64,000 bases of DNA, taken from the NCBI GenBank assembly GCA_945890645.1, contig CAMDCV010000007.1:1-64000 (forward strand), read 5' to 3'. The position numbers and the translations under genes are program-made. Below, piece after piece: positions 55,859 to 60,892 of the stretch (its first letter is position 1; the number at the start of each line of letters is the position of its first letter). The notes under the pieces were generated by a model. The model was given only the letters and a program-made list of their open reading frames with translations, ran no database searches and was not told the origin of the DNA. Source of the stretch: Akkermansia muciniphila (lineage in GTDB: Bacteria > Verrucomicrobiota > Verrucomicrobiia > Verrucomicrobiales > Akkermansiaceae).

Positions 55859-58800
55859 ATGCTCTACAACGTGACTCCACTCCAGAAACTTCTCGCTCAC
55901 TACCGCAAGGAATCCCGCACCGAGCGGGAAAAAGGCACGTATTTCGAGGAACTCATCCGCACGTATTTCCGCCACGAGCCCCGCTTTGCCGATCTTTACT
56001 CGGATGTATGGTTGTTCGCCGATTGGGCGAAAGAGCACGGCTATTCCGCCAAAGATACCGGCATCGACCTCGTCGCGAAGACCCGCGGCACGGAGGAGTT
56101 CCACGCCATCCAGTGCAAGTGTTACGCCGAAGGCCACCGCGTGCGCAAGGCGGACATCGATAGCTTTTTCACTGCTTCCGGCCAAGCTCCCTTCACCCAG
56201 CGCATCATCGTCACGACCACCGACGACTGGTCGGAAAATGCCCTGCACGCCCTATTCGCGCAAACGCCCCCAGTGTATAAGATCGACCTCCACGATCTCG
56301 AAAACTCGCTGATCGATTGGGCCAAGTACCAGCCCACCACCGCACCCGTCCTCAAGAAGAAAAAAGAACTGCGCCCCCACCAGGCCAGCGCCGAGGGCAA
56401 GGTTGTCACCGGCCTTGAATCGGCCGATCGCGGCAAGCTGATCATGGCATGCGGCACGGGTAAAACCTTCACTAGCCTGAAGATCGCCGAAAAAATCGCC
56501 GGCCCCGGCAAGCGCGTGCTTTTCCTCGTCCCCAGCCTCAATCTGCTCTCGCAAAGCCTCACCGAATGGACGCAGGAAAGCGCCACCCCGCTGCACAGCT
56601 TTGCCGTTTGCTCCGATGCAGAAGTCGGCAAGAAGCGTAACAAAGACGAGGACATCGTCGAGACCTTCGCCCACGAACTGCGCTACCCCGCCACCACCGA
56701 TGCCAAACGCCTCGCGATGGAGATGAGCAAACGCCACGATGCCCTGCACATGAGCGTCGTCTTTTCCACCTACCACTCGCTCGAAGTCATCAGCCGCGCC
56801 CAGCACCTGCACGGCCTGCCGCCCTTCGATCTGGTCATCTGCGATGAAGCGCACCGCACTACTGGCGCCAGCTTCGAGGGCGACGAGGAAAGCAGCTTCG
56901 TCAGAGTCCACGACAATGAATTCCTCCGCGCCGCGAAGCGCCTCTACATGACCGCTACCCCGCGCATCTATGCCGATGTCGCCAAGGCCACTGCCGCGAG
57001 GGACAATACCATCCTCTACGACATGAACGATGAGGCGCAGTTCGGCAAGCAACTCCACGTCATCACGTTCTCAGAAGCCGTGCAGTTAAAATTACTCACC
57101 GATTACAAAGTGATCGTCCTCACCATCAGCGAGGAACACGTCAGCTCGCGCATCCAGGACCTGCTCAAGGATGAAAACAATCAACTCAAAGTGGACGATG
57201 CCGCCCGCATCATCGGCTGCTGGAAGGCACTCTCGAAGCAAGGACTCGCCGAAGATCTCAGTGGCGATGCCGAGCCGATGCGCCGCGCCGTAGCCTTCTG
57301 TCAAATCATCGAACGCTCCACCGGACGCAGCCACAAGGTCAGCTCGAAACAAATCGCCGCGATGTTCTCCGCCGTGGTCAAGGCCTATCAAGAACAGGAA
57401 AATTCCGATAACGATCTACTCTGCGAAGCCGCCCACGTCGATGGCTCCATGAACGCTACCGAAAAGGAGCAAAAACTCGATTGGCTTAAGGCCGAGCCGC
57501 CGCTCCATACCTGCCGCATCCTCAGCAATGTCCGCTGCCTCTCCGAGGGCGTGGACGTCCCCGCACTCGATGCCGTCCTCTTCCTTACCCCGCGCAATTC
57601 ACAGGTGGACGTGGTTCAGTCCGTCGGTCGCGTCATGCGCAATGCCCCCGGAAAAAAGCGCGGCTACGTCATCCTTCCGGTCGTCATCCCCGTCGGCATG
57701 GAGCCGCACGAAGCCCTCAATGACAACAAAATCTATAAAGTCGTCTGGCAAGTTCTCCAGGCACTCCGCTCCCACGATGACACCTTCGATGCGATGATCA
57801 ATAAGATCGATCTCACCGGCCACGATACCCGCAAGATGGAAGTCATCGCCATCACCGATAAGGCCCAGAAAAAATCCACCCCCACGAAAAATTCCACCAG
57901 CAATGTCAGCGGGAAAAACCAAAGCACCATCGGCAGCCCCGAGACCCCGTATCGTGCCGAAGTCCAGACCGATCTCCAGTTTGAAGTCGGCGAGCTAGAG
58001 CGCGCCCTTTACGCCAAGGTCGTCAAGAAATGCGGCAATCCCAATCACTGGGAAGAATGGGCCAATGACATCGCCAAGATCGCGAACACCCACATTTCCC
58101 GCATCACCCAGATCGTCGGCAATTCAGAAAACACCAAGGAATGCCACGCCTTCTCCTCCTTCGCGAATGAACTGCGTGATGACCTAAATGACTCCATCAC
58201 CGATGCAGAAGTCATCGAGATGCTTGCCCAGCACCTCATCACCAAGCCCGTGTTCGATGCCCTATTCGAGGACTACAGCTTCGCCAGCCACAATCCCGTC
58301 TCCCAGGCCATGCAGCAAGTCCTGGAAGTCCTCCAAGAGCACCACCTCGAAAAAGAAGCGGACACCTTGGAAAAATTCTACACCAGCGTGAAAATGCGCG
58401 CTGCCAAGATCGATGATGTCACCGCCAAACAAAAAATCGTCGTCGAGCTTTACGACAAATTCTTCCGCAATGCCTTCCCGAAAATGACCGAGCGCCTCGG
58501 CATCGTTTATACCCCTGTGGAAATCGTCGATTTCCTCATCCACAGCGTCAATGACCTACTGCTTCAGGAATTCGGCATCAGTCTCGGCAGCAAAGGAGTC
58601 CACATCATCGATCCCTTCACTGGCACCGGCACCTTCATCACCCGCCTGCTCCAAAGCGGCCTCATCAAGCCCGAGGAACTCGAGCACAAATACAAACACG
58701 AAATCCACGCCAACGAAATTGTTCTGTTAGCCTACTACATCGCCGCCATCAACATCGAGGCGGTTTACCACAGCCTCGTGAAAAAGAACGCCGCAGGCGA

Positions 58801-60892
58801 CTACCCATCTTCAGCCCCAACGGGGCGCAAGACGATAGCCCAGGGCAACGCCCTGGGTCCTGAATCCCCAGAAAATCAGAGCCCTGTAGGGGCGACACAA
58901 TCCGGCATCCCTTACACGCCCTTCGAAGGGATTTGTTTAACCGACACCTTCCAAATGTATGAAAAAGGGGACCTCATCAGCGACCTGATGGAAGACAACT
59001 CCGCCCGCCGCAAACGCCAAAAAGCCCTCGACATCCGCGTCATCATCGGAAATCCGCCATACTCCGCTGGTCAACAATCCGCCAATGACAACAATCAAAA
59101 CGTCGCCTATCCCAATCTAGACGAACGTATTCGGGAAACTTATGTAGCTGGCACCTCGACTACTTCGATCAAAAACAATTACGACTCCTACATTCGCGCC
59201 ATCCGCTGGGCTAGTGATCGTATAGGCGATACAGGCATCATTGGCTTTGTATCGGGTAGTGGATGGATTGAGCGTTCCTTCGCCACTGGCTTGCGCAAAT
59301 GCCTCGTCGAGGAATTTTCCTCACTTTATGTCATCCACTTACGTGGCGACATTCGCAAGAACATGCTTTCCAAAGGAGCAGCCAAAGAAGGCGGAAATGT
59401 ATTTGATTCAGGCAGCATGACGGGGATCGCCGTCTATTTTTTAATCAAAAACCCCAACTCAAAGGATGTCGGCAAAATTTACTTTCATGACATCGGTGAT
59501 GACCTTACCGGAGCGGCTAAGAGAGAAAAGATGCGAGACTGGCAAAGTGCAGTGACGATTACGAAAAACCAACTTTGGAGAAATCTTATTCCCGATCTTC
59601 ATCACGATTGGATTGGTCAACGCGATACCAACTTTGAAACCTACCCGATTCTGGGCGACAAGAAAAACAAAGATGCCCTGGCAATATTCCAGAATTATTC
59701 ACTAGGCGCGAATACGAATCGTGATTCATGGATTTACAATGCATCAAAAACTCAAGTTACGCAAAACATGCAGCGCATGATTGAAACCTACAACACTGAA
59801 TTGGAAAAGAATATTGACCAAAAAGACGCAACGAATGACCCCGCCCTCATCAAGTGGTCGAGTAGTTTGGTGGCGAACTTCGAGAGGAAAAAACCTGCGA
59901 AATTTCATTCAAAGTATTTATTATTGGCCACTTATCGTTTGTTTACAAAATTTTGGTTATATTTTGATCCAATGTTCATTCATCGCGTAGGGCAGAACAA
60001 TAAAATTTTTCCTAATTCGAATTTAAAAAATATAGTAATATTAGTCAATGGAATCGGATCAAGAAATGGCGTCAGTGCTTATATAAGTAATGTTCTAGTT
60101 GATTTAAATGCATTGGAGGCAGGAGCCCAATGCTTCCCCCTCTATCTCTACGAAAAACAAGAAGAATCCGGTGACGACGAATTGTTTTCACAAGACACCA
60201 ATGAAGAGGGTGGCTACACCCGCCGCGATGCCATCAATGACGCGGGCTTGCAGCATTTCCAAAATGCCTATCCCGCATCAGACGAGGGCATACTCATCAC
60301 CAAAGAAGACCTCTTCTACTACATCTACGGCCTGCTGCATTCCCCCGACTACCGCAGCCGCTACGCCGACAACCTCAGCAAAGAACTCCCGCGCATCCCC
60401 GCCGTCAAAACCTACGCTGATTTCCGCGCCTTTGAGAAAGCGGGTCGTGAGCTCGCCCATTGGCACCTGAACTATGAAACCGTCGCCTGCCATCCCGGCG
60501 TCAGCGTCGAGACCAGCGCCACCGCGACCAGCCTGCCGCCCGAGAAACGCTACCGCGTCACCAAGATGAAATTTGCCAAAGCCAAAGACCACGGCACCGG
60601 CAAAAGCATCAACGACAAAACCACCGTCATCTACAACGAGCACATCACCCTAAGAAACATCCCCCTAGCAGCCTACGACTACGTAGTGAACGGCAAACCC
60701 GCCATCGAGTGGGTCATGGAGCGCCAAAGCGTCACCACCGACAAAGACAGCGGCATCACCAACGACGCCAACCTCTACGCCACCGAAACCATGAACGATC
60801 CCCAATACCCCCTAGAACTCCTCCAAAGAGTCATCACCGTAAGCCTGGAGACAAACAAACTCGTTGCGAACCTGCCGCCTCTCAACATATAA
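55859..60892 (+). CDS. Single-chain Type ISP restriction-modification enzyme
   Basis: Protein of 1677 aa, close to LlaGI-type enzymes (about 1,570-1,600 aa) plus an insertion. Order: Mrr-like nuclease (about 1-165; 'KDTGIDLVAKTRG ... AIQCKCY', the D and Q-x-K residues); SF2 helicase (about 180-650; 'MACGTGKTFT' Walker A, 'DLVICDEAHRT', 'MTATPRIY', 'DVVQSVGRVMRNAPGKKRG'); coupler; gamma-class adenine methyltransferase ('DPFTGTGTFITRL' near 918, 'VIIGNPPYSAG' near 1063); target-recognition part to the C-terminus. It methylates and, using ATP to translocate, cuts unmodified DNA. Residues about 984-1014 derive from a DNA repeat, and the region about 1340-1420 is unusually AT-rich. Confidence 0.93.
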   Translation: MLYNVTPLQKLLAHYRKESRTEREKGTYFEELIRTYFRHEPRFADLYSDVWLFADWAKEHGYSAKDTGIDLVAKTRGTEEFHAIQCKCYAEGHRVRKADIDSFFTASGQAPFTQRIIVTTTDDWSENALHALFAQTPPVYKIDLHDLENSLIDWAKYQPTTAPVLKKKKELRPHQASAEGKVVTGLESADRGKLIMACGTGKTFTSLKIAEKIAGPGKRVLFLVPSLNLLSQSLTEWTQESATPLHSFAVCSDAEVGKKRNKDEDIVETFAHELRYPATTDAKRLAMEMSKRHDALHMSVVFSTYHSLEVISRAQHLHGLPPFDLVICDEAHRTTGASFEGDEESSFVRVHDNEFLRAAKRLYMTATPRIYADVAKATAARDNTILYDMNDEAQFGKQLHVITFSEAVQLKLLTDYKVIVLTISEEHVSSRIQDLLKDENNQLKVDDAARIIGCWKALSKQGLAEDLSGDAEPMRRAVAFCQIIERSTGRSHKVSSKQIAAMFSAVVKAYQEQENSDNDLLCEAAHVDGSMNATEKEQKLDWLKAEPPLHTCRILSNVRCLSEGVDVPALDAVLFLTPRNSQVDVVQSVGRVMRNAPGKKRGYVILPVVIPVGMEPHEALNDNKIYKVVWQVLQALRSHDDTFDAMINKIDLTGHDTRKMEVIAITDKAQKKSTPTKNSTSNVSGKNQSTIGSPETPYRAEVQTDLQFEVGELERALYAKVVKKCGNPNHWEEWANDIAKIANTHISRITQIVGNSENTKECHAFSSFANELRDDLNDSITDAEVIEMLAQHLITKPVFDALFEDYSFASHNPVSQAMQQVLEVLQEHHLEKEADTLEKFYTSVKMRAAKIDDVTAKQKIVVELYDKFFRNAFPKMTERLGIVYTPVEIVDFLIHSVNDLLLQEFGISLGSKGVHIIDPFTGTGTFITRLLQSGLIKPEELEHKYKHEIHANEIVLLAYYIAAINIEAVYHSLVKKNAAGDYPSSAPTGRKTIAQGNALGPESPENQSPVGATQSGIPYTPFEGICLTDTFQMYEKGDLISDLMEDNSARRKRQKALDIRVIIGNPPYSAGQQSANDNNQNVAYPNLDERIRETYVAGTSTTSIKNNYDSYIRAIRWASDRIGDTGIIGFVSGSGWIERSFATGLRKCLVEEFSSLYVIHLRGDIRKNMLSKGAAKEGGNVFDSGSMTGIAVYFLIKNPNSKDVGKIYFHDIGDDLTGAAKREKMRDWQSAVTITKNQLWRNLIPDLHHDWIGQRDTNFETYPILGDKKNKDALAIFQNYSLGANTNRDSWIYNASKTQVTQNMQRMIETYNTELEKNIDQKDATNDPALIKWSSSLVANFERKKPAKFHSKYLLLATYRLFTKFWLYFDPMFIHRVGQNNKIFPNSNLKNIVILVNGIGSRNGVSAYISNVLVDLNALEAGAQCFPLYLYEKQEESGDDELFSQDTNEEGGYTRRDAINDAGLQHFQNAYPASDEGILITKEDLFYYIYGLLHSPDYRSRYADNLSKELPRIPAVKTYADFRAFEKAGRELAHWHLNYETVACHPGVSVETSATATSLPPEKRYRVTKMKFAKAKDHGTGKSINDKTTVIYNEHITLRNIPLAAYDYVVNGKPAIEWVMERQSVTTDKDSGITNDANLYATETMNDPQYPLELLQRVITVSLETNKLVANLPPLNI
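58809..58900 (+). repeat. Palindromic dispersed-type repeat absorbed in frame into the methyltransferase
   Basis: Three palindromic pieces lie in tandem: GCCCC-AAC-GGGGC (58814-58826, one flank looser), CCCAGGGC-AAC-GCCCTGGG (58839-58857, perfect 8-bp stem), and AGAGCCCTGTAGGGGCGACA (58878-58897). This type of sequence normally occurs between genes in PVC genomes (general recollection). Here it is read as protein, starting 'SSAPTGRKTIAQGNALG', between 'NAAGDYP' and 'YTPFEGICLTDTFQM'. Confidence 0.75.

Follow-up and report, generated by a model that had tools for sequence, protein, structure and literature searches.

Conserved proteins of Rickettsia can carry palindromic repeats, the Rickettsia palindromic elements, as in-frame insertions. 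Repetitive extragenic palindromic sequences (REPs) of the GTAG and CGTC families have likewise been catalogued within open reading frames (ORFs) of many genes, the most intragenic GTAG repeats being reported for the verrucomicrobium Opitutus terrae (main text of PMC3733652). According to the same text, REP dimers and groups encode 20-30 residues, two Xanthomonas recB genes carry different REPs at nearly one position, and CGTC types such as RPE-4 and RPE-6 have no transposase link. A further structured element, Acido-Lenti-1, is tabled in PMC2864571 as a probable RNA that is not cis-regulatory, and the remarks on it in a 2026 paper (PMC13298647) state that little is known about it. Here we analyse the first 64,000 nucleotides (the window) of contig CAMDCV010000007.1 from an Akkermansia muciniphila genome (GCA_945890645.1), in which a gene for a Type ISP restriction-modification enzyme is read through a 90-bp, REP-like palindromic repeat.

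Like the Rickettsia elements, with which it was compared by description rather than by sequence, the window palindrome is kept in frame in a conserved protein; unlike them, it occurs in other bacteria and belongs to a family found at Y1 transposase genes. The Rickettsia parallel drawn by an earlier note on this DNA therefore works as an analogy, whereas the family itself is associated with REP-associated tyrosine transposases (RAYTs) and resembles Acido-Lenti-1. The same note had called this a rare way of making protein; it is less rare than that, as the catalogued REPs within ORFs attest (main text of PMC3733652), and for the same reason the kind of event is already known. With those published REPs the window repeat shares the reading of short palindromes through ORFs and, as for GTAG types, the RAYT association. 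It differs from them in that its family forms a triple hairpin of 90 bp whose tag is degenerate, and in that a single loop of a single enzyme family has here received repeats of some six families, of which two have weak support. Neither "restriction" nor "methyl" occurs as a word in the main text of PMC3733652. At title and abstract level, the literature yielded no report of Type ISP enzymes with REPs inside them (one may be listed in the supplement to PMC3733652) and none of Acido-Lenti-1 as a transposase-linked repeat. Judged by that search, the recurrence at one loop and the link between Acido-Lenti-1 and a transposase would be the new parts.

The features on which the comparison turns are as follows.

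55859 to 60892, plus strand: Type ISP restriction-modification enzyme gene, 1677 amino acids, with all motifs searched for found
58610 to 58636, plus strand: methyltransferase motif I, DPFTGTGTF, from the motif search
58787 to 58810, plus strand: extra loop residues NAAGDYPS, outside the repeat, from the loop comparison with homologues
58811 to 58900, plus strand: three-hairpin REP-like repeat, 90 bp, residues 985-1014 in frame; 95.3 bits in a covariance model that has this copy among its own 17 sequences
58814 to 58826, plus strand: hairpin 1, GCCCC-AAC-GGGGC, 4 of 5 pairs changed on both sides
58839 to 58857, plus strand: hairpin 2, CCCAGGGC-AAC-GCCCTGGG, 5 of 8 pairs changed on both sides in copies chosen by this hairpin
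58881 to 58893, plus strand: hairpin 3, GCCC-TGTAG-GGGC, 3 of 4 pairs changed on both sides
58813 to 58857, minus strand: match to Rfam RF01687 (Acido-Lenti-1) over hairpins 1 and 2, 40 bits at a gathering threshold of 37
59051 to 59062, plus strand: methyltransferase catalytic motif NPPY, from the motif search

The 1677-residue ORF continues uninterrupted across the repeat block. Its Pfam matches (Mrr_cat_2, ResIII, Helicase_C, ISP_coupler, N6_Mtase, Eco57I and Type_ISP_C) place an Mrr nuclease, a helicase-like ATPase, a coupler, a methyltransferase and a specificity domain in that order on a single chain, as in a Type ISP enzyme, and the gene looks whole because the GTGKT, DEAH, motif I and NPPY strings are all present. 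Both flanks of the repeat belong to this one enzyme, with homology on each side, and the frame is kept across the insert. The earlier note had placed a block of roughly 90 bp with three palindromes at 58809-58900, among them the one now listed as hairpin 2, and had proposed that it adds about 30 residues to the methyltransferase in the loop between motif I and NPPY. All of this was borne out: the block spans 58811-58900, comprises exactly 30 codons and encodes the peptide SAPTGRKTIAQGNALGPESPENQSPVGATQ.

The loop that holds the repeat is 49 residues long in the window enzyme, as against 8 residues in most homologues and at most 29 in 98 of 105 homologous loci; some 41 residues are thus extra, of which 30 derive from the repeat. 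These 105 loci are what remained of 112 supplied after the loop script had failed to parse seven, with at least one duplicated gene among them (L149 and L174) and a pair, L057 and L058, whose tree rows are identical. With 98 loops this short, the residues of the insert are not a feature of the enzyme family. Uniqueness, also supposed by the earlier note, holds for the sequence of the insert and fails for an insert in this loop, since the loops of other lineages carry repeats of their own. An empty-loop relative is L149, 86% and 76% identical on the two sides and with an 8-residue loop, which lacks the whole 90 bp together with about 11 further residues around the repeat. LlaBIII and LlaGI (4xqk, 5ffj) are related to the window enzyme from the nuclease or ATPase domain to the specificity domain and share its fold, but have 7 residues between the aligned stretches where the window enzyme has its 49-residue loop.

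The insert itself stands out from its surroundings. Its longest stem was equalled in none of 300 comparison segments of the same gene and its summed stem in 1.7% of them and in none of 200 shuffles. With up to three mismatches allowed, a 20-base pattern for hairpin 2 hits the window once and none of 100 shuffles, and by the covariance model the window holds one full copy of the family, in which all 90 family positions are matched. Further copies, whose presence in this genome the earlier note had put forward as a check, were found. Neither of the outcomes that the note named as fatal to its reading, a lack of other copies or the same residues in distant Type ISP enzymes, was thus obtained, and its interpretation is supported. 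Blast gave two clear ones, a hairpin pattern search gave two more with matched changes in both arms, and the covariance model brought the count to 19 matches at E <=0.01, the window copy included. Each of 10 genus genomes searched with the model gave between 2 and 52 matches, and blast matches were present in 32 of 57 genomes, the window genome among them. Among 10 other copies of this genome read in context, eight overlap no ORF of at least 100 amino acids and the remaining two overlap only ORFs of 102-133 amino acids, in agreement with the earlier description of an intergenic-type repeat. Many copies of the family are arranged as close inverted pairs.

The stems of the repeat family are held by covariation. 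In an alignment of 17 copies from this and related genomes, selected by hairpin 2, the three stems are paired in 98.6% of cells, and 12 of 17 pairs and 28 cells are changed on both sides. None of 500 shuffles reached 12 such pairs, and versions slid along the alignment gave at most three. Hairpins 1 and 3 provide the fair test because the copies were selected by hairpin 2; they are paired in 100% and 97.1% of cells, respectively, in an alignment from which L033 (a mislaid row), L028 and L036 (poorly aligned at hairpin 1) had been left out, an omission that favours structure. Avoidance of stop codons, by contrast, was rejected as a property of the family, whose copies leave on average 2.35 of six frames open versus 2.60 in shuffled sequences (two in the window copy); what stands of the earlier statement that the insert avoids stops is that the ORF is open through the block.

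The copies are also linked to transposase genes. Of 38 genomes, 35 carry Y1_Tnp (IS200-like) genes, the window genome being one of them. With copies taken from the best 150 of 234 family matches, at least eight of the 22 Y1 genes of the genus (E <1e-15) have a copy within 400 bp, and at least six have one on both sides; the chance of being flanked is 0.7% per gene (binomial p = 1.5e-12, with copies among the matches listed). Copies lie as near as four bases to a Y1 gene. In the window genome, a Y1 gene (L246, 1599-2051) stands between copies at 1496-1586 on the plus strand and at 2085-2175 on the minus strand. This arrangement, with the nearest left copy on the plus and the nearest right copy on the minus strand, was seen in eight of 11 loci that had been picked because copies lay near their Y1 genes (L246, L248-L252, L254 and L255), the exceptions being L253 (left copy only), L256 (plus strand on both sides) and L257 (opposite arrangement). 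REPs and RAYTs are arranged in this way, with repeats in inverted orientation on either side of the gene. The family shows two marks of a REP, namely many, mostly intergenic copies and the flanking of Y1 transposase genes.

Since the repeat is multicopy, has covarying stems and flanks Y1 genes, we conclude with a probability of about 0.82 that the insert represents a non-autonomous mobile palindrome of REP-like type, whose family was most likely spread by an IS200/RAYT-like Y1 (HUH) transposase encoded in this genome and in related ones. The transposase would recognise the hairpins as single-stranded DNA and place copies at exposed strands. One 90-bp copy would by chance have landed in frame in the surface loop between motif I and NPPY, where extra residues may be tolerated, and the enzyme would have gained 30 disordered residues. 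A permissive loop would also be the reason why selection has not removed the insert. The model of the protein is consistent with this, in that residues 300-333 of a 995-residue model have a predicted local distance difference test (pLDDT) score <50 and the 30-residue insert is probably disordered. The DNA-recognition loops I to VI described for LlaGI in the text of PMC4872093 lie outside the insert site, which falls about 50 residues before loop I by an estimated numbering offset.

Several points weigh against this reading. Mobility is read from sequence patterns, and no target-site rule was found for the insertions. The exact base of insertion cannot be fixed, because the loop around the repeat has about 11 more residues than empty loops. 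Among the matches listed, 14 of the 22 Y1 genes have no copy within 400 bp. The tag beside hairpin 1 is mostly GTAT or not found and rarely GTAG: a strict-anchor script counted GTAT in 17 of 55 copies, GCAT in 4, GTAG in 2, GTCT in 1 and none in 31. By eye, the GTCT tag is that of the window copy, and GTAG is visible in further copies. Finally, the window genome is a draft of 66 contigs in which the insert is seen in the assembly only.

The match to Acido-Lenti-1 bears on what the repeat is. RF01687 passed its gathering threshold at eight sites in 17 family loci, including copies beside Y1 genes in L254 and L256; most of 64 family matches, largely from the same loci, remained below it. The Rfam model overlaps the transposase-flanking repeat in the window and in L254, L256, L257, L253 and L019. 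Like Acido-Lenti-1, the window repeat has hairpins 1 and 2 that match RF01687 above gathering; unlike the RNA, which PMC2864571 in its entry ascribes to Acidobacteria and Lentisphaerae, it flanks transposases, has a third hairpin and is translated. The Acido-Lenti-1 RNA family may thus be a mobile DNA element, and this orphan Rfam RNA is open to reinterpretation as a transposase-associated repeat.

Loops of 40-49 residues were found in seven of the 105 loci: the window, L055, L062 and L086 (Nitrosovibrio/Nitrosomonas), L122 and L051 (Verrucomicrobiaceae) and L148 (another family of the phylum). In all seven, the summed hairpin stem exceeds that of at least 96% of comparison segments of the same gene, the weakest being L148, which is reached by 3.7% of such segments and by 1.5% of shuffles. 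By the longest stem alone, the window insert stands out and the other six are matched by 5 to 15% of same-gene segments. The insert of L122 is an inverted pair; counting itself, it has 40 matches in its home genome, and genome G060 has 35, in counts that score 40 candidates per genome and count both strands of a palindrome, and the halves of one place, separately. The L051 insert has nine further matches at about seven places in its own genome. That of L148 runs from GTAG to CTAC, resembling a GTAG dimer; its genome has few other copies, all of them weak (E 5e-4 for the best, 0.15 for the next and still weaker for the rest). A shorter loop of 29 residues in L169 contains an inverted repeat that fails the short-hairpin test. 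Similar inverted repeats occur in its own genome (L197-L200, E 0.025 to 0.09), and its best match, L196 (E 0.014), is not repeat-like.

The Nitrosomonadaceae insert runs from CGTC to GACG and resembles the CGTC dimers of PMC3733652, as described in its main text. Two array copies of its half-element are present in the genome of L086, and in the draft genome of L055 the insert was found only in the two enzyme copies, so that the multicopy claim for this lineage rests on the two array copies plus in-frame copies in the same genes. Between members of this lineage, the loop peptide is identical at 42-43 of 48 positions, the preceding 266 residues at 258-261 positions and the following 264-266 residues at 188-210 positions. 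The loop is thus less conserved than the upstream part and more conserved than the downstream part, which fits weak constraint. In-frame CGTC-type palindromes also occur in L055 and L086 at a second length-variable site of the C-terminal part (L055:5332-5403 and L086:5326-5442) and at another such site (L055:5725-5799 and L086:5755-5829). In an alignment of 37 homologues that excludes L051, L122, L148 and L169, no other site of the C-terminal half has insertions as long or as frequent as the loop. Seven insertions of at least 20 residues were found in that alignment, at three sites in three genes (window, L055 and L086), and all are palindromic repeats by eye.

Copies read through other genes were recovered by likeness to the window copy or to the covariance model. 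The most similar full-length copy (84% by blast, genome G054) belongs to the N-terminal part of a Type I hsdS gene (L019:1439-2995; Methylase_S, 5e-18), whose start codon overlaps the stop of the preceding ORF. This copy is in frame, the frame being that of the window copy, and gives a similar peptide, SQAPKGRNKTAQGNALGNAPPEDQSPEGAGQSG. Another copy, from a genome of the same genus (G007), reads through a 732-residue ORF (L022:3-2198) that PADLOC matches to Type III restriction (E 9.7e-18); a Pfam search of this ORF gave no match. Among 56 distinct copy places scanned, three were judged to be inside conserved genes, namely the window gene, the hsdS gene of G054 and the Type III-like gene of G007. 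Fourteen others lie in open frames of at least 200 codons whose composition looks spurious, one of which (L025) is the stretch before a Y1 gene. Three restriction genes out of three is suggestive at most, because the copies were fetched by likeness. Repeats of the other kinds also run through long ORFs: one of the L169 kind through an SNF2 helicase ORF (L198, genome G255, about 1400-1560), and palindromes of the L051 kind through DUF7133/HEAT, serine dehydratase and PSCyt2 ORFs (L189, L192 and L194, genome G060).

Could the hairpins be kept for an RNA role instead, as an Acido-Lenti-1-type structured RNA or as an mRNA hairpin that paces translation of the methyltransferase and specificity half, with the peptide a by-product? 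We regard this as quite improbable. The minus-strand match to an Rfam sRNA family and the strong covariation of the stems speak for it, but the RF01687 match is antisense to the gene, and a DNA hairpin bound by a Y1 transposase predicts covariation equally well, the copies flanking Y1 genes. Moreover, other lineages carry other palindromes at the site or, in L169, an inverted repeat without a short hairpin, and none of the seven loci with other lineages' inserts matches any Rfam family at gathering. That the block is an assembly artefact or a chance palindrome is hardly credible: the genome is indeed a draft without reads, but the preserved frame and the homology of both flanks to one enzyme, the complete 90-position family match and the parallel insert cases in independent assemblies all contradict it.

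More weight can be given to the idea that the long loops go back to one ancient insertion that has since diverged or been overwritten by later repeats, which we still consider unlikely. Common to the window and L051 are SSAPxGR, read in one frame in both, and a hairpin-1-type palindrome, and L122 also has SSAPT; because all of them show SSAP, a shared first insertion for window and L051, perhaps also L122, is possible. The carriers are somewhat clustered on the tree (103 rows, loop excluded, built by a quick method, with the placement of L169 unsure), where five of 500 label shuffles need as few changes. Against one origin for all, the eight insert-bearing rows (at least 28 residues) require six state changes, four of them forced by branches with a Shimodaira-Hasegawa-like approximate likelihood ratio (SH-aLRT) support of at least 95, and the families differ by genome, L122 and L051 each matching multicopy repeats of their own and L055 and L086 carrying CGTC-type dimers. 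Somewhat less likely again is that the repeats target this loop by its DNA sequence, or are favoured in restriction genes, beyond mere tolerance. The copies in Type I hsdS and in the Type III Res-like gene of related genomes would fit such targeting, but the insertion points within the loop vary by lineage with no common flanking motif by eye, and for other repeat families the genes read through are unrelated ones (SNF2, serine dehydratase, PSCyt2). Chance insertion of a REP-like mobile palindrome into a tolerant loop accordingly remains our preferred explanation. We put forward as a tentative extension, on which we would bet somewhat against, that unrelated mobile palindromes have time and again become protein by a permanent gateway, the Type ISP loop that separates motif I from NPPY, that restriction-modification genes in general are a preferred sink for such translated repeats, and that Acido-Lenti-1 is the recognition end of an IS200/RAYT-like transposase.

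The loop offers a natural replicate experiment, with several unrelated mobile repeats turned into protein at one site of one enzyme family, and it allows a test of whether translated REPs are no more than tolerated or alter what a restriction enzyme, a phage-defence protein, does.

Some further loops were set apart from these cases. The loop of L111 (SLPRAREG), which we had taken to be a beta-proteobacterial repeat, was dropped as a repeat insert, its own-genome matches being weak (best other E 0.0185) and those read looking like ordinary coding DNA. Two loops from plasmids, L145 and L146, were likewise rejected, since they are longer without being palindromic; the plasmid matches comprise the listed rows of 218 records, and match length was the criterion for all but these two. 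The loop of the nearest homologue on the tree (L048:3847-3888) encodes RTDHCSLNT, looks like heptamer repeats and was not counted as an insert. It matches an intergenic stretch of the window genome (L006:6679-6698) at 19 of 20 bases.

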